A program made the translations under genes and the position numbers. A stretch of DNA of 64,000 nt, from the NCBI RefSeq assembly GCF_020085105.1, contig NC_058043.1, forward strand, positions 10,479,167-10,543,166. The letters are read 5' to 3'. The notes below the pieces were generated by a model. The model was given only the letters and a program-made list of their open reading frames with translations. It ran no database searches and was not told the DNA's origin. Source of the stretch: Siniperca chuatsi (lineage: Eukaryota; Chordata; Actinopteri; Centrarchiformes; Sinipercidae). Positions within the stretch are counted from its first letter, which is position 1, and each line of letters opens with the position of its first letter. Shown piece by piece: positions 3,528 through 50,953 of the stretch.

Positions 3528-3649
3528 AGGAGTGTGGATGGTATGCTCAGAAATTATATATATATATAAAACATGAAGTGCAAATTTTTATTATTTCAAA
3601 GCCCACTAGAGGACTGAAATCTATCATAGGGTTACCACTACCTCTGTGA

Positions 3650-4178
3650 AAAAAACTTCGTCCTTCACCCTCCGCGGGTGGTTTCATCCTTCGAGCTCGG
3701 GTCCTCTACCAGAGGCCTGGGAGATGGGGGTTCTGCACAGTATTTGCTGTTCTTTGCTGTTCCTAGTACTGCACTTTTCTGGACTAAGATGTCTGGTGTT
3801 CTTCCAGGGATCTGCTGTAGCCACTCCTCCAGTTTGGGGGTCACTGCCCCGAGTGCTCCGATGACCACGGGCACCACTGTTGCCTTCACCTTCCAGGCCT
3901 TCTCCAGCTCTTCTCTGAGCCCTTGGTACTTCTCTAGTTTCTCATGTTCCTTTTTCCTGATGTTGCCATCACTTGGTATTGCCACGTCAACCACAACTGC
4001 CTTCCTCTGCTGTTTGTCCACCACCACGATGTCTGGTTGGTTCGCCATTACCATTCTGTCAGTCTGAATCTGGAAGTCCCACATGATCTTGGCTCGGTCG
4101 TTCTCTACCACCTTTGGAGGTGTTTCCCAATTTGACCTTGGGGTTTCCAGTCCATACTCCGTGCAGATGTTCCTGTAT
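3650..4178 (-). mobile_element. 5'-truncated LINE copy (3' end with REL endonuclease)
   Basis: Minus-strand copy of the same LINE as 4311-7462, keeping only the last part of the ORF and the 3' end. The translated part contains DRMVMANQPDIVVVDKQQRK and VVDVAIPSD, a PD-(D/E)XK restriction-like endonuclease core, then KLEKYQGLREELEKAW and VVPVVIGALGAVTPKLEEWL. The 5' end breaks off directly into a TATATA run at 4177-4190. The 3' end finishes in the conserved GC-rich tail followed by a T run (A run at 3649-3656 on the plus strand). Confidence 0.85.
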
Positions 4179-4310
4179 ATATATATATAAACTCAAAACA
4201 GGCAATAGCAGCACACATACAGTACCCACAACTGATGTTGTACTTGAACTAATAGTGTAATACCATCAAAGCAAAGCAAAGTGACATAGTGGTGTGATTA
4301 GTATATATAA
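4177..4310. repeat. TA array and spacer between two LINE copies
   Basis: A TATATA run (4177-4190) follows the truncated copy. Next come about 115 unassigned bases, then a short TATATA at 4302-4310 before the next copy. Bases 4187-4205 reappear in inverted orientation at 7568-7586, beyond the far end of the second copy. Confidence 0.6.
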
Positions 4311-4360
4311 CTTTGTCCTTCACCCCCCGCGGGTGGTCTCGTCCTTCGAGCTCGGGTCCT

Positions 4361-5181
4361 CTACCAGAGGCCTGGGAGCTTGAGGGTTCTGCGCAGTATC
4401 TTTGCTGTTCCCAGTACTGCGCTCTTCTGGACCGAGATGTCTGGTGTTCTTCCAGGGATCTGCTGTAGCCACTCCTCCAGTTTGGGGGTCACTGCCCCGA
4501 GTGCTCCGATGACCACGGGCACCACTGTTGCCTTCACCTTCCAGGCCTTCTCCAGCTCTTCTCTAAGCCCTTGGTACTTCTCTAGTTTCTCATGTTCCTT
4601 TTTCCTGATGTTGCCATCGCTTGGTATCGCCACATCAACCACAACGGCTTTCCTCTGTTGTTTGTCCACCACCACGATGTCAGGCTGATTCGCCATTACC
4701 ATTCTGTCAGTCTGGATCTGGAAGTCCCACAGGATCTCGGCTCGGTCGTTCTCTACCACCTTTGGAGGTGTTTCCCACTTTGACCTCGGGGTTTCCAGTC
4801 CATACTCAGTGCAGATGTTCCTGTACACTATGCCAGCTACTTGGTTATGGCGCTCCATGTATGCTTTTCCTGCCAGCATCTTACACCCTGCAGTTATGTG
4901 CTGGATTGTCTCAGGGCCTCTTTGCACAGCCTACACCTTGGGTCTTGTCTGGTGCGGTAGATCTGGGCCTCTATTGCTCTGGTGCTCAGGGCCTGCTCCT
5001 GTGCAGCCATGATGAGTGCCTCTGTGCTGTCCTTCAATCCAGCCCGCTCTAGCCATTGGTAGGACTTCTTGATATCAGCCACTTCAGTTATGTTCGGTGG
5101 TACATCCCATGTAGGGGTTTGTCCTCCCATGATGGTCCTTCCTCCAGCACGTCTTCCTCTGTTCCCCATTGCCTGAGACAT
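4361..5181 (-). pseudogene. LINE zinc knuckle and PD-(D/E)XK endonuclease (frameshifted)
   Basis: The 5181-4894 frame carries CRLCKEA; the following HITAGC completes a C-x2-C-x7-H-x4-C zinc knuckle after a frameshift in a G run near 4915. The 4927-4361 frame holds the restriction-like endonuclease, with PDIVVVDKQQRKAVVVDVAI as its PD...(D)xK-like core. In this LINE class this nuclease nicks the chromosomal target to prime reverse transcription. The ORF ends at 4361, near the 3' tail of the element. Confidence 0.85.
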
Positions 5182-6613
5182 TCACTGAGCACGTCATCTG
5201 TTGGGGCCTTATCTTTGATGTACTTGTGGATCTTGGATGTTTCATCCTGGATAGTGGCTCTCACACTCACTAGTCCACGGCCGCCTTCCCTACGGCTAGC
5301 GTACAGTCTCAGGGTGCTGGATTTGGGATGGAACCCTCCATGCATGGTGAGGAGCTTTCGCGTCTTAACGTCTGTGGTCTGTATCTCCTCCTTTGGCCAC
5401 CTTATTATTCCTGCAGGGTATCTGATCACTGGCAGGGCGTAGCTGTTTATTGCCTGGGCTTTGTTCTTGCCATTGAGCTGACTTCTTAGGACTTGCCTTA
5501 CTCGTTGAAGGTATTTGGCCGTTGCCGTCTTCCTTGTTGCCTCTTCGAGGTTGCCATTTGCCTGTGGTATTCCAAGGTACTTGTAACCATCCTCAATGTC
5601 TGCTATTGTTCCTTCTGGGAGTGAGACCCCTTCTGTGTGGACTACCTTCCCTCTCTTTGTCACCATTCGACTGCACTTCTCAAGCCCGAATGACATCCCA
5701 ATGTCAGAGCTGTAGATCCTGGTGGTGTGGATCAGTGAGTCGATGTCCCGCTCGCTCTTAGCGTATAGCTTGATGTCATCCATGTAGAGGAGGTGACTGA
5801 TGGTGGCCCCGTTCCTGAGTCGGTATCCATAGCCAGTCTTGTTGATTATTTGGCTGAGGGGTTCAGACCTATGCAGAACAGCAGTGGGGACAGAGCATCT
5901 CCTTGGTATATGCCACATTTGATGGATACTTGTGCAAGTGGCTTACCATTGGCCTCAAGGGTGGTTTTCCACAGCCTCATCGAGTTCGCAATGAAGTCCC
6001 TTAGAGTCCTGTTGATGTTGTACATCTCTAAGCATTCAGTGATCCATGTGTGCGGCATTGAGTCATATGCTTTCTTGTAATCAATCCAGGCAGTGCACAG
6101 GTTGGTGTGTCGGGCTCTGCAGTCTTGGGTGACTGTTCTGTCAACCAGGAGTTGGTGTTTGGCTCCTCTGGTTCCTCTGCCAATGCCCTTCTGTGCTTTG
6201 CTCATGTATTGATCCATGTGTCCACTTATCTTAGCCGCAATGATGCCTGACATGAGCTTCCATGTTGTGGAGAGGCAGGTTATTGGCCGATAGTTGGATG
6301 GGACTGTACCCTTTGCGGGATCCTTCAGGATCAGGATTGTGCGCCCTTCGGTAAGCCATTCAGGGTGCGTCCCATCTCTTAGCAGCTGGTTCATTTGTGC
6401 TGCTAGGCGCTCGTGGAGTGCAGTGAGCTTCTTTAGCCAGTAGGTGTGGATCCTGTCAGGGCCCGGTGCTGTCCAGTTCTTCATACCTGAGACTCTTTCT
6501 TGGATGTCTGCCGCTGTGATGGTGACTGGATTCTGTTCAGGGAGGTTGCTGTGGTCCTTTCTCAGGGCTGCCAGCCACTGTGCATCGCTGTTGTGTGATG
6601 CCTCCTTTCCCAT
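5088..6613 (-). pseudogene. LINE reverse transcriptase domain (frameshifted)
   Basis: Two overlapping frames (6613-5846 and 5918-5088) make up one RNA-dependent DNA polymerase. The palm motifs are DYKKAYDS (motif A) and YMDD (motif C, 5775-5786), with catalytic Asp residues present. Fingers motifs GPDRIHTYWLKKL and PSNYRPITCL precede them. The frames switch inside a C run just after FCIGLNP. The segment after the YMDD motif (LYAKSERDIDSLIH; GYKYLGIPQ; VIRYPAGIIRWPKEE) matches the thumb and linker of R2-type LINEs. The enzyme would carry out target-primed reverse transcription, but the frame break suggests this copy is inactive. Confidence 0.85.
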
Positions 6614-7430
6614 ATACTTTTCCAGTACTGCTCCGTTTCCAGCCTTGGTGGGTCTGCTCTGCTGTTATTACCCTGCCATTGAGCGTACACTTTCGCAGGT
6701 TGAGTTGCGAACAGCCGGTTTATTCTTCTGGCTTCATTGTCTCTCGTGTATCTCTTTAGGCGGCTGGCCAAGGCTTGGAGCCTTTGTTTGGCAGTTTCGA
6801 GTGCTTCAGGTATGGGCATCTGGTTGTACTTCTTGGGTACTTGCTTTCTCATTGCACCCCTCTCAGCCTCTGTCAGTTGGCTCACTTCTCTCCGGGCCTC
6901 CTTGATTTTTGCCTCCAACCTTCGTTTCCATGGTGGGTATTGTCTCTCATGGCTCCCATGGTTGCTCTTGTAGCCAAGCATCTCTAGGATCACTGCTGCT
7001 GAGGCGTATATCAGCTCATTGGTTTCAGTGATGGTTGTGGTAGGGATCGCTCTCAATGCTGCATTCACATCTTCTAGGAGACTTTCTGATGGTACTTCAC
7101 TTAGCCGTTGTAGTTGGCGCGGGGTTGCCTTGTATTCATCCTCGCCATGATCTTATCTTTCAGGTCAGTTGCTGCCTCGTTCAGCGTGATTTCTCTTGGG
7201 GCTTCGTACCCAATCTCTGGTTGGGGAGCTGCTGGATGCTCCCCTGACCTGTAGTCCTGGCTCCCCCTTGCCGTAGCATTTGTGTTGTACCTCGTCAATC
7301 TCAAGTTGTGATAGCAGTTGCCGCTTGTGGATGTTGGAACACTGAGCTACTAGTTGCTTCGCCGTAAGCCTCGATTGTGGGTTTCAAGTAACCATTCACC
7401 CCACATCCTGTGCATGTAACCCCTCTGACT
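6562..7430 (-). pseudogene. LINE ORF, N-terminal region (frameshifted)
   Basis: Begins upstream of 7304 with a frame containing MHRMWGEWLLETHNRGL, shifts into TAKQLVAQCSNIHKRQLL, then into further frames. The 7068-6562 segment holds a basic, probably helical region (PPWKRRLEAKIKEARREVSQ; LKRYTRDNEARRINRLF) typical of the nucleic-acid-binding part before the RT in this LINE class. It ends in EQYWKSIWE, where the frame is lost and resumes in the RT segment. No intact start codon for a complete protein can be assigned. Not a host gene. Confidence 0.7.
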
Positions 7431-7462
7431 AGGGTTACTGGAGTAGTAGCATTCCAACAGAG

Positions 7463-7527
<65 letters not shown>

Positions 7528-7530
7528 TAT
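7463..7530. repeat. (TA)n/(CA)n microsatellite
   Basis: About 50 bases of pure TA dinucleotide followed by ACACACAC. It directly abuts the 5' end of the LINE copy at 4311-7462. Confidence 0.95.
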
Positions 7531-8243
7531 ACATACAGTATATATATATATTGCTATTGCTATATTGCCATTGCCTGTTTTGAGTTTAACTGCTCTTGTA
7601 AAGTTTCTAAAGTTTTTTAAGTTTCTTAAGTTACTTATTTCTGTCCTTGTGCTGCTGTAAGACCCAAATTTCCCCTGTGGGGGATCAATAGAAGAATTAT
7701 CTTAAAAATTGAATAGAGATTAGAAGGAGCTAAGACAAAGAGACACAATTAAACACACAGTATATTAAACAAAACTCTTCTTGCTATCAACTTCAACCAT
7801 GGTGTTGTTCTCATACAAAAATGATTTGTTGAGGCAATATTCATACCGTCCAATTATTTAAAAAATATTAAACAACTATACAGATATGGTGACGTATGAT
7901 GCACAAATACTCTGACGGTGTGATGCATCTTACTTTCAAAGATTCATGCCAACAAATTAACCATTACAAGTAAAAACACTGCTTGCATTTAATCTTTTAA
8001 TAAACGTTCAGTGTGTCCGTAGAGGTAATGTCCACTGCAGTACTTGGCCAAGAACCAGAATTCAGTAATGTTGGAACCAAACAGATGTCAGTGGATAATG
8101 CTATGTAGTACCAGCTCCCAGACAACTGAAATAAAAGAAGGAATTCTTGTTTTTTTAAATAATATGCAACTTTTATTGCGAATATTTTCTTTCCCAGCAC
8201 ATTTCAGAAAAAAAGAAGCATAACAACACACAAAGTCTTCATC
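7531..8243. repeat. Intergenic DNA with SINE/L2-type tail
   Basis: Contains a tail-like segment around 7655-7700 (TTTCCCCTGTGGGGGATCAA) related to the common fish SINE/L2 ends that also form the hairpin at 56060-56175. The rest is AT-rich with no recognisable gene. Confidence 0.5.
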
Positions 8244-13171: not shown

Positions 13172-13839
13172 CGAAGCCTTTAGCTTGTACTGTATGTAAA
13201 ACCAGCTTATCTGAATGTTTTAAACATGACACACTGTTGCACTTAAAAGCTTACTGGACCGAAATTCACCAACTGCTGATTGTTGTACTGTTAATATTTT
13301 TTACTACTGTGATTTTATTTCACAAATGATCAATCACATTTAACTGTTCTCATACAAAAACATGCAAGAAATAAAACCACCACCAAAAGGTTTTACTGGA
13401 TGTTTTTGATTTAACATATGGACTGCTACCTTTTAACGACCCTGTACACTCACACAGGTTGAAGCTGCTCAGGTTGAAGTTGTGCTGGAATTACATGAGG
13501 TCACCAAACTTAAACCAATAAGAATGATAAAAGTGTAACTTTTCCCACCCAGACAGATGCAACAAAACTAACGGGAGGGTCAGAGAGGTGTCAGTCAAAC
13601 AGTCTTTCACAGTCTCCCCTTCCCTTGTTCACTCATTCACTACTCCCTATATAGTGGACACTCAATAGTTTATGCAATATTAATAAGCAGTAAACTGAGA
13701 TTTCAGACACTTATCATCACTGACAACTGTTGCATAAAAGAATTTCTGGCATTTTATTTTAGAAACATTGGGGATTGTTAGCAGTGTACATGCCCTTGAC
13801 ACTATTTATTTAGTTCTATTGTGTTTTGAGAGCACTATA
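13172..13839. other. Intergenic DNA, nothing recognised
   Basis: AT-rich sequence between two repeats. I see no coding exon, RNA gene or clear element here. Confidence 0.5.
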
Positions 13840-13956
13840 TATAATATATATATAATATATATATAAAAACCTCTGCAGGTGATCTCATCCTTCGAGCTTG
13901 GGTCCTCTACCAGAGGCCTGGGAGCTTGAGGGTTCTGCGCAGTATCTTTGCTGTTG
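13840..13956 (-). mobile_element. Short 3'-end fragment of the REL-endonuclease LINE at a TA array
   Basis: TATATA-type repeats (13840-13865) followed by about 90 bases matching the 3' end of the LINE (TCGAGCTTGGGTCCTCTACC; GGGTTCTGCGCAGTATCTTT). The match stops at 13955. This is a very short 5'-truncated insertion. Confidence 0.8.
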
Positions 13957-14945: not shown

Positions 14946-15579
14946 AAAGCCCTGCTGGAAATAACAGCTCATAGTATTGGGTTTTTTGTTGAGATTGAGG
15001 TGGTGATTCATCGTGTTTAACTACTGAGAGTGTAGTTGCAGTGTATTTAAAGGCGCAATTTGTAGAATCCTCATGATTTTATAGCATCATTCAAATTAGT
15101 CTGATAAGTTTATGTGAAAATGGGATAATTCAAGTGGAAATTGGTGCAGTCTGTGTTGCTATCAGACCATTTATCTCAGGTTCCCCAGGTCGGATTAGTG
15201 GGAGTATGTTTACATGCACCCTAGTATGCACCCTTTGAGTCTTTTCCTGGTTTTCATCACATTAGAAATATAAGGGGTACTCTGAATACAAAGATACTTG
15301 GTAATTGGTTTCTGGTTACCTGGCCTCTGCTGCTTTTACCACTCAGCCTGATTTGGCTTCTCAATCTGATCACCATTTCACTAGCAAGGACCACACCATC
15401 AACAGATGCGTTTAAGTGATTTATTGACGTAAACGAAAGATTATGAGTGAAGCTCGAACTCTTGTACTTCTTCTGTCCATTGCTTTGTGTGGGGAGGCTT
15501 CGTGGGGAATCCTCCGTAGCACCCGGGCACGATGGACACCCCCAGGACCCTACGGAGGGTAGCAAGGAGGGAAAAAATA
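14946..15579. other. Intergenic DNA left of the tandem duplication
   Basis: No gene recognised. Near 15510-15560 is a GC-rich patch with an imperfect hairpin (CCTCCGTAG ... CTACGGAGG arms about 30 bases apart). The overlapping minus-strand ORFs in this area have no family resemblance. Confidence 0.45.
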
Positions 15580-16365
15580 GGAGAAAGAAAGGGGTGAGAG
15601 CGAGAGCAAAAAAGGAGGAGATGGTTTAGGTGGGAATTTATGGGAATGCTGGAAGCGATCCTGCTCCTGAAACCCATGCCGTTCCTAAAACAAATTCCAC
15701 AGACTCTTAAAGTGAAGTGAAGTAGCATATCTGGGTTTCTCTTGAATCAGGACATGATGTTTACATGAACAAACGCATTACCAGGATACTTCATGCAAAT
15801 GCACTCACCATGTCTGCCACAGTGTATGTGTGTGTTTTTTTATTCTACCACTGGGGGTGCCAAATGTTTGAAATCCTGAACATAGTAGTTTTAGACACTA
15901 TACCTTAAAATTAAATTTTAGGTGGACTTCTCCTCTCAAAGTTATCACTTTGTTGTGAGGCTTGGACTAGAAATTACATAACATAAACCAATATTGACGG
16001 GGAACTGGAGGCATTATGTGGGGAGATCTCATGTTCCTCCAGAGATGCGCCACGTGTTTCATCCCACAGGACATACATCTTAGGTGAATGGATGCCTGAG
16101 TGTGGACAATGTGGAGTCTGTTGCATTATCAATAGCTGTATTAGCCAAAAACATGCTCCAGCATTCCCAGGAAGAGAAAAAAACAACCCACACCTACTAG
16201 ACAATGTCAGTATATTATATGGGTACTACAGGAAGTACCATGAGTAAAAAAAAGGAAGTCTTATTTTTTATTGGGGATGTAATGAATCTTAGAGCTGTGA
16301 GAGTCAGGTTGTCTCTCAGGTTGTTCAGTTTTTATGCTTATTTTATTAGTCATCTTGCACATGGG

Positions 16366-16740
16366 CAGAGGTGGGACGTAACTACGTGCATTTAATCATG
16401 TACTGTGCTTAGTAGGTACAATTTTTAGGTACTTTACTTGAGCTCTTTCATTTTATGCCACTTTATACTTCTATTCTACTACTCAAGTTGGCGCCACCTT
16501 GACCAGCTACAGTATTCAAATGCAACACACACATCAGTAATAATATTTCAGTCACATTCACATGAGAAATTTTTCTGCTTTATGAGTACTTTCGTTACTT
16601 TAAGTACATTTTGCTGATAAAAGTTATGTACTTTCACTTAAGATTTTGAATGCAGGACTTTCACTTGTAATGGCATATTTTTACATTGTGGGATTGCTAC
16701 TTTACTTTAATAAAGGATCTGAATACTTCTTCCACCACTG
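16366..16740. mobile_element. Tol2-like hAT MITE (in unit A)
   Basis: Begins CAGAGGTGGGACGTAACTAC and ends ATACTTCTTCCACCACTG, good inverted termini of the hAT type. Interior has ACTTTACTTGAGC and AAGTACATTTTGCTGATAA. No transposase ORF. Confidence 0.75.
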
Positions 16741-17267
16741 TACATGGGCAGAATGCACCCAAAGTTTCAGAAAATGTCCAAAATTTCAGAAATAAATACA
16801 CATACAATAAAAATAATATATCGTTGGAAACAATTTTATATATAAATATGACTGCTGCCATGTCTGTTCAAGTGTTCACGTAGGAGTCACATGCACCCTA
16901 ATACTGTACACATGTGTAACATACAGTATCTCACAGACTGAAAAGATATTTGCTCCCTTTTGTATCTACGATAGTGATGTGGATTATATTCATAGTTTGT
17001 ATATAATCTACAGATCATCATATGTGCTTGACTTTGATCATTTATCCATCTCCATTTTTTACATTTTGACTTACAGAATTAGCATGCAACACTTTATATT
17101 GGGATGCATAAATCACATAATCATATATAAGTGGTTTTGGACAGCTATTTGCGTCAGTACTATACTGTTCTGAAGTTTTTTGCTGACAATACTTTAAAAG
17201 CTGTACCTTTAAAAGAAGGAGAATGGATACAATCCAAACCAAATGCTAGTAGTACATAAACGTCATT

Positions 17268-17729
17268 TTTAAGTTACTCAGTATATGACTTAAGAATTGC
17301 ACAATTTTGAGGTATTTTACTTAATCATGAGACTTTATACTTTTACTCCACTACATTTATTCAACAGCTTTAGTTACTAGTTAATTTTCAGATTAAGATT
17401 TTATTTTACAAAACATCAGTTTATAAAATATGATGCACTGTTGTAGATCAAAGTACCCAGCAGTATATAAAGCAATTCAATTTAGCCCCATCTTGTCATC
17501 TAGTTGGTCAAGTTAATGCATCAATAATAATAATAATCATCCAATAATGTAATAATTAAACTCAACAGTGAGCACTTTTACTTTTGATACTTTAAGTACA
17601 TTTTGCTGATAATACTTCTGTGCTTTTACTTAAGTGGAATTTTGAATACAGGGGTCTTACTTGAGTATTTTTATACTATAGTATTGCTACTTTTACTTAA
17701 GTAAAAGATCTGAATACTTTCCACCACTG
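17268..17729. mobile_element. Tol2-like hAT MITE (in unit A)
   Basis: Right end TGAATACTTTCCACCACTG is clear. The left end is degraded (TTAAGTTACTCAGTATATG). Interior CTTTTACTCCACTACATTTA and AAGTACATTTTGCTGATAAT match the other copies. Confidence 0.65.
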
Positions 17730-17843
17730 CACATACTCGCCAAGATTATTTTTGTAACCTTTGTAGAACATTTCCGGAATGGTTCATTTTTGGGAGAAAA
17801 CAAGTGGCCTACCTCTTAAAGTGCCCCATGGGTTCTAACTGGG

Positions 17844-17847
<4 letters not shown>

Positions 17848-17896
<49 letters not shown>
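17848..17896. repeat. (CA)n microsatellite
   Basis: About 24 uninterrupted CA units; duplicated at 21398-21447. Confidence 0.95.
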
Positions 17897-17899
<3 letters not shown>

Positions 17900-19916
17900 C
17901 TATCCCATGTGTGTTTTTGTGCTGTTAGATTCAACCAGCAGAAGACCAGTCAACAACTCACTCAGCAGGACAGATGGCTGCTGGGTCCATTGAAACAACA
18001 AAACTATGCTGCATTAACTTATTTATCACCATGTGGAAAAAACAGAAACCAAAAATCCAGTCAGCCTTTTAATAAATGTTTTATTTGCAGTTCCGAAAGT
18101 ATGAACAGTTTGGGTTATTTCACATGAGAGATTTCTGTATTTATTTTTTTCTCTGAGCTCACTGGTTTGAAGTGGGTGGTGCTTATTTGGAAGAAGGTGA
18201 TGTCACATACTTCTGTGCACCAATTAGGATTTAGCAACATTTAGTTTTGATGACAGTTTTTTACTGTTTAACTCTTAATAAATAATACTTAAAGATGTTT
18301 AGTAGCTATGATTGTTGCTTATTTAGTCATGACAATGTGAAAACAATGTGAAAGGTGTTGCTTTTAGTGATGAACCTACAGAGAATTACCACCTGAATCT
18401 GACGCTCCCCTCGGCTTTATGGAGCTTTATAATCAGTTTCAGCTGTCCGGCCCACAACTTTACTGTTTTGGTTCACTCTCACTGATGTTTTCAGCTCTAA
18501 AAACCCACTGTACACTACCTGCTCAGCACCAAACAGCAGACACAGTTAGAGACTATAGCTGGTGAACAGAGGCAGCAGCTAAAGAGCCAGAAATGTCCCT
18601 TATGAGTTGGTAGAGACCAAAAACAGAGCTAAAAGAGAGTGAATAAAAGACTTACATTCCCCAGGTGGACAGAAATGACTGGAAACGGGGAAACAGCTAG
18701 CCTGTTCAAAGGTGACAAAATCCACCTACTAGCATCTATAAATCTCATTTCACATGTTAGATTGTACAGGTGTACCTAATAAAGTGGCCACTGTGCGAAT
18801 GTACTGGCCAATCGGGTCTTCTAATTTAGTTACAAAATTTCTGCAGGAACACTCAATAAATGTCTATAAATGTCTGTATTTCAATTTTTAACTAGTTTTA
18901 TGTGTTTTATGCAAAGATTAAATGAATACAATGTTTTGGTAACTTTCTCCACAGACAGAAATCTTCACCTTCGTAAAGAGTTTGTTGATTCTTTAAGTTT
19001 AGTTTTCTCTCAGCGCATCCCTAGTCCACCTCTCTGATCTTCCAACACCCCCTTTTTCACATCATGTACCCACAAAACCAACACATGACACTTGTTTTGA
19101 GTTCATCTCTACACACATTTGAAAAGGAGGAGAAAGAAAGGGGTGAGAGCGAGAGCAAAAAAGGAGGAGATGGTTTAGGTGGGAATTTATGGGAATGCTG
19201 GAAGCGATCCTGCTCCTGAAACCCATGCCGTTCCTAAAACAAATTCCACAGACTCTTAAAGTGAAGTGAAGTAGCATATCTGGGTTTCTCTTGAATCAGG
19301 ACATGATGTTTACATGAACAAACGCATTACCAGGATACTTCATGCAAATGCACTCACCATGTCTGCCACAGTGTATGTGTGTGTTTTTTTTTATTCTACC
19401 ACTGGGGGGTGCCAAATGTTTGAAATCCTGAACATAGTAGTTTTAGACACTATACCTTAAAATTAAATTTTAGGTGGACTTCTCCTCTCAAAGTTATCAC
19501 TTTGTTGTGAGGCTTGGACTAGAAATTACATAACATAAACCAATATTGACGGGGAACTGGAGGCATTATGTGGGGAGATCTCATGTTCCTCCAGAGATGC
19601 GCCACGTGTTTCATCCCACAGGACATACATCTTAGGTGAATGGATGCCTGAGTGTGGACAATGTGGAGTCTGTTGCATTATCAATAGCTGTATTAGCCAA
19701 AAACATGCTCCAGCATTCCCAGGAAGAGAAAAAAACAACCCACACCTACTAGACAATGTCAGTATATTATATGGGTACTACAGGAAGTACCATGAGTAAA
19801 AAAAAGGAAGTCTTATTTTTATTGGGGATGTAATGAATCTTAGAGCTGTGAGAGTCAGGTTGTCTCTCAGGTTGTTCAGTTTTTATGCTTATTTTATTAG
19901 TCATCTTGCACATGGG

Positions 19917-20292
19917 CAGAGGTGGGACGTAACTCACGTGCATTTAATCATGTACTGTGCTTAGTAGGTACAATTTTTAGGTACTTTACTTGAGCTCTTT
20001 CATTTTATGCCACTTTATACTTCTATTCTACTACTCAAGTTGGCGCCACCTTGACCAGCTACAGTATTCAAATGCAACACACACATCAGTAATAATATTT
20101 CAGTCACATTCACATGAGAAATTTTTCTGCTTTATGAGTACTTTCGTTACTTTAAGTACATTTTGCTGATAAAAGTTATGTACTTTCACTTAAGATTTTG
20201 AATGCAGGACTTTCACTTGTAATGGCATATTTTTACATTGTGGGATTGCTACTTTTACTTTAATAAAGGATCTGAATACTTCTTCCACCACT
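19917..20292. mobile_element. Tol2-like hAT MITE (in unit B)
   Basis: Duplicate of the element at 16366-16740, carried by the tandem duplication, with one-base indels. Confidence 0.75.
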
Positions 20293-20815
20293 GTACATGG
20301 GCAGAATGCACCCAAAGTTTCAGAAAATGTCCAAAATTTCAGAAATAAATACACATACAATAAAAATAATATATCGTTGGAAACAATTTTATATATAAAT
20401 ATGACTGCTGCCATGTCTGTTCAAGTGTTCACGTAGGAGTCACATGCACCCTAATACTGTACACATGTGTAACATACAGTATCTCACAGACTGAAAAGAT
20501 ATTTGCTCCCTTTTGTATCTACGATAGTGATGTGGATTATATTCATAGTTTGTATATAATCTACAGATCATCATATGTGCTTGACTTTGATCATTTATCC
20601 ATCTCCATTTTTTACATTTTGACTTACAGAATTAGCATGCAACACTTTATATTGGGATGCATAAATCACATAATCATATATAAGTGGTTTTGGACAGCTA
20701 TTTGCGTCAGTACTATACTGTTCTGAAGTTTTTTGCTGACAATACTTTAAAAGCTGTACCTTTAAAAGAAGGAGAATGGATACAATCCAAACCAAATGCT
20801 AGTAGTACATAAACG

Positions 20816-21281
20816 TCATTTTTAAGTTACTCAGTATATGACTTAAGAATTGCACAATTTTGAGGTATTTTACTTAATCATGAGACTTTATACTTTTACT
20901 CCACTACATTTATTCAACAGCTTTAGTTACTAGTTAATTTTCAGATTAAGATTTTATTTTACAAAACATCAGTTTATAAAATATGATGCACTGTTGTAGA
21001 TCAAAGTACCCAGCAGTATATAAAGCAATTCAATTTAGCCCCATCTTGTCATCTAGTTGGTCAAGTTAATGCATCAATAATAATAATAATCATCCAATAA
21101 TGTAATAATTAAACTCAACAGTGAGCACTTTTACTTTTGATACTTTAAGTACATTTTGCTGATAATACTTCTGTGCTTTTACTTAAGTGGAATTTTGAAT
21201 ACAGGGGTCTTACTTGAGTATTTTTATACTATAGTATTGCTACTTTTACTTAAGTAAAAGATCTGAATACTTTCCACCACT
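20816..21281. mobile_element. Tol2-like hAT MITE (in unit B)
   Basis: Duplicate of the element at 17268-17729, carried by the tandem duplication. Confidence 0.65.
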
Positions 21282-21394
21282 GCACATACTGCCAAGATTA
21301 TTTTTGTAACCTTTGTAGAACATTTCCGGAATGGTTCATTTTGGGAGAAAACAAGTGGCCTACCTCTTAAAGTGCCCCATGGGTTCTAACTGGG

Positions 21395-21397
<3 letters not shown>

Positions 21398-21447
<50 letters not shown>
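21398..21447. repeat. (CA)n microsatellite
   Basis: Copy of the array at 17848-17896 within duplication unit B. Confidence 0.95.
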
Positions 21448-21450
<3 letters not shown>

Positions 21451-22675
21451 CTATCCCATGTGTGTTTTTGTGCTGTTAGATTCAACCAGCAGAAGACCAG
21501 TCAACAACTCACTCAGCAGGACAGATGGCTGCTGGGTCCATTGAAACAACAAAACTATGCTGCATTAACTTATTTATCACCATGTGGAAAAAAACAGAAA
21601 CCAAAAATCCAGTCAGCCTTTTAATAAATGTTTTATTTGCAGTTCCCGAAAGTATGAACAGTTTGGGTTATTTCACATGAGAGATTTCTGTATTTATTTT
21701 TTCTCTGAGCTCACTGGTTTGAAGTGGGTGGTGCTTATTTGGAAGAAGGTGATGTCACATACTTCTGTGCACCAATTAGGATTTAGCAACATTTAGTTTT
21801 GATGACAGTTTTTTACTGTTTAACTCTTAATAAATAATACTTAAAGATGTTTAGTAGCTATGATTGTTGCTTATTTAGTCATGACAATGTGAAAACAATG
21901 TGAAAGGTGTTGCTTTTAGTGATGAACCTACAGAGAATTACCACCTGAATCTGACGCTCCCCTCGGCTTTATGGAGCTTTATAATCAGTTTCAGCTGTCC
22001 GGCCCACAACTTTACTGTTTTGGTTCACTCTCACTGATGTTTTCAGCTCTAAAAACCCACTGTACACTACCTGCTCAGCACCAAACAGCAGACACAGTTA
22101 GAGACTATAGCTGGTGAACAGAGGCAGCAGCTAAAGAGCCAGAAATGTCCCTTATGAGTTGGTAGAGACCAAAAACAGAGCTAAAAGAGAGTGAATAAAA
22201 GACTTACATTCCCCAGGTGGACAGAAATGACTGGAAACGGGAAACAGCTAGCCTGTTCAAAGGTGACAAAATCCACCTACTAGCATCTATAAATCTCATT
22301 TCACATGTTAGATTGTACAGGTGTACCTAATAAAGTGGCCACTGTGCGAATGTACTGGCCAATCGGGTCTTCCTAATTTAGTTACAAAATTTCTGCAGGA
22401 ACACTCAATAAATGTCTATAAATGTCTGTATTTCAATTTTTAACTAGTTTTATGTGTTTTATGCAAAGATTAAATGAATACAATGTTTTGGTAACTTTCT
22501 CCACAGACAGAAATCTTCACCTTCGTAAAGAGTTTGTTGATTCTTTAAGTTTAGTTTTCTCTCAGCGCATCCCTAGTCCACCTCTCTGATCTTCCAACAC
22601 CCCCTTTTTCACATCATGTACCCACAAAACCAACACATGACACTTGTTTTGAGTTCATCTCTACACACATTTCAG

Positions 22676-49898: not shown

Positions 49899-49948
<50 letters not shown>

Positions 49949-49951: not shown

Positions 49952-50907
49952 CTTTGTCCTTCACCCTCCGCGGGTGGTCTCATCCTTCGAGCTCGGGTCC
50001 TCTACCAGAGGCCTGGGAGCTTGAGGGTTCTGCGCAGTATCTTTGCTGTTCCCAGTACTGCACTCTTCTGGACCGAGATGTCTGGTGTTCTTCCAGGGAT
50101 CTGCTGTAGCCACTCCTCCAGTTTGGGGTCACTGCCCCGAGTGCTCCGATGACCACGGGCACCACTGTTGCCTTCACCTTCCAGGCCTTCTCCAGCTCTT
50201 CTCTGAGCCCTTGGTACTTCTCTAGTTTCTCATGTTCCTTTTTCCTGATGTTGCCATCGCTTGGTATCGCCACGCCAACCACAACGGCTTTCCTCTGCTG
50301 TTTGTCAACCACCACGATGTCTGGTTGGTTCGCCATTACCATTCTGTCAGTCTGGATCTGGAAGTCCCACAGGATCTTGGCTCGGTCATTCTCTACCACC
50401 TTTGGAGGTGTTTCCCACTTTGACCTCGGGTTTCCAGTCCATACTCAGTGCAGATGTTCCTGTACACTATGCCAGCTACTTGGTTATGGCGCTCCATGTA
50501 TGCTTTTCCTGCCAGCATCTTACACCCTGCAGTTATGTGCTGGATTGTCTCAGGGGCCTCTTTGCACAGCCTACACCTTGGGTCTTGTCTGGTGTGGTAG
50601 ATCTGGGCCTCTATTGCTCTGGTGCTCAGGGCCTGCTCCTGTGCAGCCATGATGAGTGCCTCTGTGCTGTCCTTCAGTCCGGCCCGCTCTAGCCATTGGT
50701 AGGACTTCTTGATATCAGCCACTTCAGTTGTTCCGGTGGTACATCCCGTGTTGGGGTTTGTCCTCCCATGATGGTCCTTCCTCCAGCACGTCTTCCTCTG
50801 TTCCCCATTGCCTGAGACATTCCCTGAGCACGTCATCTGTTGGGGCCTTATCTTGGATGTACTTGTGGATCTTGGATGTTTCATCCTGGATAGTGGCTCT
50901 CATCTCA
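49943..50907 (-). mobile_element. 5'-truncated LINE copy with zinc knuckle and REL endonuclease
   Basis: Minus-strand copy of the 4311-7462 element. Read in order it has ATIQDETSKIHKYIQDKAPT, CRLCKEAPETIQHITAGC (intact C-x2-C-x7-H-x4-C knuckle), then PDIVVVDKQQRKAVVVGVAI of the endonuclease. A Gly replaces the Asp found in the other two copies (VVDVAIP there). Frameshifts lie in short G runs near 50128 and 50430 and near 50730. TA arrays touch both sides (49899-49942 and 50909-50966). Confidence 0.9.

Positions 50908-50908
<1 letters not shown>

Positions 50909-50953
<45 letters not shown>

Follow-up and report, generated by a model that had tools for sequence, protein, structure and literature searches.

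Rex6, a LINE of Siniperca chuatsi, very probably targets (TA)n arrays and may be transcribed by RNA polymerase III

The Dong/R4 clade comprises long interspersed nuclear elements (LINEs) with a restriction-like endonuclease that lie in ribosomal DNA or in microsatellites. For Dong, the target in most insects, molluscs and cnidarians is (TAA)n (PMC7998251, section 3.3), and a review links the R4 family to ribosomal RNA (rRNA) genes (PMC6274825). LINEs of the same endonuclease type with dinucleotide or other microsatellite targets are Togen, a NeSL-related fish element specific for (TG)n, and some HERO families (PMC4640811). Rex6 is a teleost element without long terminal repeats (LTRs) that belongs to the R4 family (Volff et al. 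2001, as cited in PMC3728117), and it is said to occur in teleost genomes only (PMC6274825). Here we analyse Rex6 in a 64,000-nucleotide (nt) stretch of Siniperca chuatsi (NC_058043.1, positions 10,479,167 to 10,543,166 of assembly GCF_020085105.1; hereafter the window) and across the genome. The copies lie in TA arrays, and we lean towards reading Rex6 as an autonomous, (TA)n-targeting LINE that would be transcribed by RNA polymerase III (pol III), the choice of polymerase being deduced from sequence features. Rex6 resembles Dong and R4 in its type of endonuclease and in its association with a microsatellite, but differs from them in its (TA)n target, in the lack of a match to a hepatitis delta virus (HDV)-like 5' ribozyme and in the lack of a Pfam Myb/SANT match; it resembles Togen and HERO in the kind of target, but differs in clade and in the repeat used.

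The identity of the element follows from its primer sites and domains. The window holds four Rex6 fragments (c1 to c4) detected by blastn, all on the minus strand, so that the 3' end of the element has the low coordinate. The Rex6 reverse primer matches all four at 22 of 22 positions, and the forward primer matches at 20 of 22 in both copies long enough to contain its site (primer sequences as printed in PMC3728117). Described Rex6 and the copies here also have reverse transcriptase (RT), CCHC and PD...D motifs in common. Pfam detects the RT (RVT_1, E 1.1e-15); its closest solved relatives are R2 proteins, the compared set containing no known R4 chain. In the endonuclease region, the CCHC motif is present in c4 and the PD...D motif in c1 and c2, and a related Rex6 copy gives zf-RVT (E 6.5e-4) and a BsuBI/PstI restriction-enzyme domain (E 0.1), both below the Pfam cut-offs. 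The original prediction of a restriction-like nuclease is supported by the two motifs together with a weak profile match, and not by the fold: a single-sequence model of the endonuclease frame reaches a predicted local distance difference test score of 36, and a search of solved structures with this frame returned 0 matches. Primer sites and motifs identify the element as Rex6, a LINE predicted to have a restriction-enzyme-like endonuclease. Two N-terminal Rex6 reading frames gave no Pfam match to Myb/SANT, a domain for which HHpred was needed elsewhere. Exact Rex6 primer scans of viral contigs and of genome contigs found 0 and 0 matches.

To examine the target genome-wide, a 300-base probe of the Rex6 3' end was searched against the 718.8-Mb assembly, which yielded 1418 candidates. 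Forty copies were scored; they are 99-100% identical, which suggests recent activity. Thirty of the 40 form the young sample, which is therefore skewed to the youngest copies (L003 is c2 of the window, and L031-L050 are L001, L002 and L004-L021 viewed from the 5' side). All 30 young copies have ...ACAAAGTT at the 3' end; additional Ts come next in 26 of them, and nearly all continue into alternating AT. A TA run of at least 6 nt is present within the first 60 nt of the 3' flank in 28 of 30, and at control distances of 480, 960 and 1400 nt in 0, 1 and 0 of 30, respectively. Of 23 copies examined at the 5' end, 21 could be read, two with assembly gaps being set aside; a TA run of at least 8 nt lies within 60 nt in 19 of the 21 and within 10 nt in 15. 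Four further readable 5' ends, obtained from 15 additional stretches (ten held no Rex6 and one ran off the end), all have a TA run, giving 23 of 25 in total. Between 480 and 1800 nt upstream, a TA run of even 6 nt is found in only 0 or 1 copy. As a further control, 20 stretches of 1 kb, placed at round coordinates and not randomly drawn, contain a TA run of 8 nt or more in no 60-nt window and one of 6 nt or more in 2.9%.

A second sample consists of 20 of the 39 full-length matches (c1 aside) nearest to c1, which is more diverged. Nineteen were counted; L060 was excluded because the anchor is absent, and TA is seen there nonetheless. The association is weaker in this sample: 14 of 19 copies have TA within 60 nt of the 3' end, compared with 2 of 19 at 90-150 nt.

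Truncated copies distinguish a target from a part of the element. In the copies truncated at element positions 365, 1662, 1834, 2215 and 2794, 42-65 nt of TA is found no further than 23 nt upstream of the truncated end. Since TA precedes 5'-truncated copies whatever internal base they start at, TA is the target and not part of the element; TA as an element tail only is ruled out on the same ground. The original prediction that this LINE inserts into (TA)n, which it offered as a possible reason for the survival of the family in a gene-rich genome, is, as far as insertion is concerned, borne out by the genome-wide counts at both flanks and, less strongly, by the second sample, and the alternative that it had named beforehand as refuting, that TA belongs to the element, fails on the truncated copies. 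In L061, the 3' end of one Rex6 is followed by a TA array and then by the 5' head of another in the same orientation, as expected if a single array were hit twice. Inverted element pieces occur at some 5' ends (L023, L026), and such pieces are known from target-primed reverse transcription. At L035 and L040, runs of N (assembly gaps) start exactly at the 5' end; long TA arrays may have caused these assembly breaks.

We conclude that Rex6 very probably targets (TA)n arrays for insertion. The observations that weigh against this are two 5' misses (L030, with no TA upstream, and L045, with TA 80 nt away) and the five of 19 second-sample copies without 3' TA (L053, L057, L059, L063 and L070). Two other accounts of the arrays have to be considered. 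The arrays could be made by the element itself, a 3' tail expanding after insertion (microsatellite seeding). All 30 young 3' ends do run into T and then into AT of variable length, as a slipping tail could give, and seeding has been suggested for Rex elements in Ctenoluciidae on the basis of chromosome staining (PMC11138015). A tail does not account for the TA that is also 5' in 23 of 25 copies, truncated ones included, nor for L017/L046 and L025, where TA is limited to a few bases 3' of the element but extends over 50 and 65 nt 5' of it, and we regard seeding as extremely improbable. The copies could also result from loose, AT-biased insertion and retention in TA-rich spacer, with no sequence-specific targeting. 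This would suit the arrays that are interrupted or mixed with CA/TG (L012, L022, L041) and the five second-sample copies named above. It is nevertheless very unlikely, as TA falls to background within ~500 nt on either side and runs of 8 nt or more are absent from the 20 kb of arbitrary stretches.

The copies in the window show the same junctions. The features are as follows, from low to high coordinate.
3656..4177, minus strand: c1, a 5'-truncated Rex6 3' fragment (blastn and junctions), ~93% identical to c2; primer site at 3700-3721
4176..4189, no strand: TA run of 14 nt adjoining the c1 5' end
4302..4309, no strand: TA run of 8 nt adjoining the c2 3' end
4311..7463, minus strand: c2, the longest Rex6 copy of the window (blastn), with broken frames; primer site at 4355-4376
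4361..4930, minus strand: frame of c2 spanning the PD...D endonuclease motif and the C-terminus (motif)
5088..5942, minus strand: frame of c2 that encodes the second RT part (RVT_1, E 1.1e-5, below the Pfam cut-off)
5846..6664, minus strand: frame of c2 that encodes the first RT part (RVT_1, E 1.1e-15; nearest solved chains are R2 proteins)
7464..7513, no strand: TA run of 50 nt adjoining the c2 5' side
13836..13865, no strand: interrupted TA array at the c3 3' end
13875..13955, minus strand: c3, a short Rex6 3' fragment (blastn) without TA on its 5' side; primer site at 13901-13922
49899..49943, no strand: TA run of 45 nt at the c4 3' side
49952..50902, minus strand: c4, a 5'-truncated Rex6 (blastn), 97% identical to c2; primer site at 49996-50017
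50910..50947, no strand: TA run of 38 nt at the c4 5' side, past 7 nt of filler (50903-50909)

TA runs are found at six of the eight ends of these fragments; the ends without TA are the 3' end of c1, whose nearest run is 80 nt off, and the 5' end of c3. Only ~0.5% of window positions lie within 12 nt of a TA run of 8 nt or more, and the chance of six in eight is ~8e-13 by the binomial, which assumes independent ends. Six matches were reached in 6 of 63,999 circular shifts, and those shifts are probably of a few bases. All three uninterrupted TA runs of 20 nt or more in the window sit at Rex6 ends. These six ends are the same six at which the original prediction had placed TA contacts. Its statement that the 5' ends stop exactly at TA holds for c1 and c2; for c4, homology stops 7 nt short. 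On its 3' side, c4 is separated from the 45-nt run by A9, which is T9 in the sense of the element, and of its motifs the CCHC is present and the PD...D has a D to G change.

Pairwise comparison of the 600-nt flanks of the window copies shows that, where the c1 and c2 flanks do not overlap, different loci have no more in common than TA-type matches and an inverted match of 23 bp. A single duplicated locus behind the window copies is ruled out, the flanks being unrelated. The 23-bp inverted match (96%) lies on either side of c2, at 4188-4210 and 7566-7588. The 80 nt at 3569-3649 separate the c1 3' end from a 14-nt TA run at 3555-3568; if these 80 nt were a read-through (3' transduced) tail, c1 could also be placed between TA runs.

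All window copies lack the true 5' end of Rex6, c2 the first 386 nt. A full copy is ~3.5 kb long, and complete copies start with one or two units that resemble transfer RNA (tRNA) and bear the box A and box B of pol III promoters, for which the generally known consensus sequences were used. The start is GCGGCTGGATAGCTC in 10 of the 12 copies having a 5' end; L033 and L049 have different initial bases. In 11 of these 12, box A (TAGCTCAATTGG) lies at nt 10. All 12 have at least one perfect box B (GGTTCGAATCC), and six have two; in copies with an intact unit 1 it is at nt 52-53. A strict pair of box A and box B is present in six of 11 full-length copies. No other such pair occurs in the 64-kb window or in 49 kb taken from other LINE loci, and none of 2000 shuffles produced one. 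The junction between head and body has the same position in 12 copies, and within the 326 kb examined it occurs only in Rex6 loci. A TATA hexamer is positioned 15-45 nt upstream in 11 of 11 copies, as any TA array would give. An HDV-like ribozyme at the 5' end was considered and rejected, as there is no HDV-type Rfam match in the 5' ends of L047 and L044, in L038 or in window positions 6900-7700.

Promoters with box A and box B of tRNA origin are otherwise described in tRNA-derived short interspersed nuclear elements (SINEs) and in Helenus, a group of tRNA-like LTR elements (PMC10886601). The head of Rex6 is like these, but SINEs and Helenus are non-autonomous, whereas Rex6 encodes its own RT and endonuclease. 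On the reverse strand of L047, the tRNA-like units are followed by GGGTCCTTAGGCAAGACCCTTCAC. This stretch is reminiscent of SINE central domains, and the 5' end of Rex6 may be a captured SINE.

Runs of T stop pol III. Complete copies of Rex6 end in ...ACAAAG, usually followed by a T run and then by TA, and a run of four or more Ts directly follows ACAAAG in 24 of 30 young copies. Internally, no T run of four or more is present in any of eight copies of 3.15-3.57 kb, and in eight of 11 full-length copies the first TTTT of the sense strand lies exactly at the 3' end. L031 and L042 have no T run at the 3' end and their first TTTT is further downstream; in L043 the first TTTT is within an insertion. 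Hence, internal TTTT is absent in 10 of 11 full-length copies. The near-absence of T runs from the sense strand is what a full-length pol III transcript would require.

The avoidance extends to TTT. Seven copies have 1-2 TTT each, versus 13-14 expected from their T content. The 1023 codons of L044 include only eight for Phe (0.8%), all of them TTC, and five of its 87 Leu codons are TTA or TTG. L044 has 0 TTT runs versus 4.6 expected for the same protein and codon usage, with 2 of 500 permutations equally low; a third-base model gives 10.4 expected, with 0 of 500 as low. For comparison we used 16 other RT frames from the same genome, eight of them the best matches given by the tool and eight chosen from the other 142 by the lengths of the hit and of the open reading frame. 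All 16 contain TTTT (0.8-12.6 per kb), their Phe content is 2.5-5.2%, and their TTT is at the permutation expectation, with the exception of L075, in which it is low. The frames carry no family assignment, and L075 has no FADD/YADD motif. The coding strand of Rex6 strongly avoids TTT, and it looks adapted to pol III.

Taken together, the sequence features suggest the following mechanism. Pol III would start from an internal promoter, at the first G of the tRNA-like unit or close to it, transcribe the whole of Rex6 and terminate in the 3' T run, so that the RNA carries a U tail. A nick inside a (TA)n array would be followed by target-primed reverse transcription of the U-tailed template, and TA would be left on both sides of the inserted Rex6, as the junctions indicate. 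The upstream TA array may give each new copy a TATA-like site. RNA made by pol III has no cap, and the same translation problem arises for R2 RNA, which is produced together with rRNA. In its fullest version, to which we assign even weight for and against, Rex6 would be a ~3.5-kb autonomous coding LINE served by pol III from end to end, with a tRNA-derived promoter, a coding strand purged of T runs and nearly free of Phe, a T-run terminator and a (TA)n target that perhaps supplies the TATA.

Several results weigh against transcription by pol III. At the 5' end, the remaining full-length copies lack the strict pair of boxes; ARAGORN at default settings finds 0 tRNA genes in eight loci and in 12 sequences, the latter giving only low-scoring hits at a relaxed threshold; and the tRNA-like units have no Rfam tRNA match. 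The units are not intact tRNAs. At the 3' end, six of 30 young copies have no terminal T run of four or more. In the coding strand, dinucleotide content alone predicts the missing TTTT (0.34 expected by shuffles), for which reason the lack of TTTT, taken alone, was rejected as sufficient evidence; A runs of four or more are also depleted in L044 (5 versus 14.9 expected); and the control RT frames are not matched to Rex6 in base content or clade. In addition, LINEs are described as using RNA polymerase II (pol II), and the processivity of pol III as weak (Kojima 2024, PMC10886601).

Two readings of the same features do without pol III. The tRNA-like end could be a processing site at which RNase P or RNase Z would cut a read-through transcript to generate the RNA end, comparable to the 5' self-cleaving ribozymes of R4 and Dong, which cut at the element 5' end (PMC3774820). 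No such ribozyme was matched in Rex6, so another device may substitute for it, and most complete copies share a uniform 5' end. However, the units fail tRNA scoring, which such an enzyme would need them to pass, and yet they keep boxes A and B, and the avoidance of T runs is left unexplained; we consider a processing site unlikely. T runs could instead be avoided for another purpose, such as preventing internal priming at U runs while the RNA is reverse transcribed, or limiting A/T homopolymers in general, with the head a captured SINE devoid of function. The depletion of A runs of four or more fits this, and so does the likeness of the stretch past the units to SINE central domains. In L044, however, AAA is near expectation (50 versus 58.9) while TTT is absent, and the head is joined at the same place in 12 copies and begins the complete ones. 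This reading is likewise doubtful, and transcription by pol III remains the one that we prefer.

The window has a G+C content of 39.5% and contains other repeats. A tandem pair at 15573-22672, with units of ~3.55 kb that are 98-100% identical where compared, is either a recent duplication or an assembly duplicate. A family of short repeats with inverted arms, resembling miniature inverted-repeat transposable elements, is present at ~31.0, 39.9, 45.0, 47.5-48.2, 61.5 and 62.4-62.8 kb; in the list of TA runs of the window, none of these places has a run of 10 nt or more.

Rex6 itself is known; its target specificity and its mode of transcription seem new, the latter as an unproven proposal. The excerpts of the Rex6 literature state neither a (TA)n target nor a tRNA-like 5' end. 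Among the matches listed in open-licence literature, likewise available in excerpts, there is no statement of a (TA)n target for Rex6 and no LINE with a tRNA-type promoter. Other mobile elements do reside in TA microsatellites, namely MuTAnT, Micron and TAFT (PMC4486113), but these are plant DNA transposons, which unlike Rex6 do not use reverse transcription. Targeting of dinucleotide arrays is also relevant when retrotransposon enzymes are to be selected for inserting DNA where it does no harm. LINEs have been described as transcribed by pol II and SINEs as transcribed by pol III (PMC10886601), and a pol III LINE, if true, would break this division. Rex6 would then be an example of polymerase termination reshaping a protein, and it would indicate that a microsatellite-targeting element can escape dependence on co-transcription with the host.

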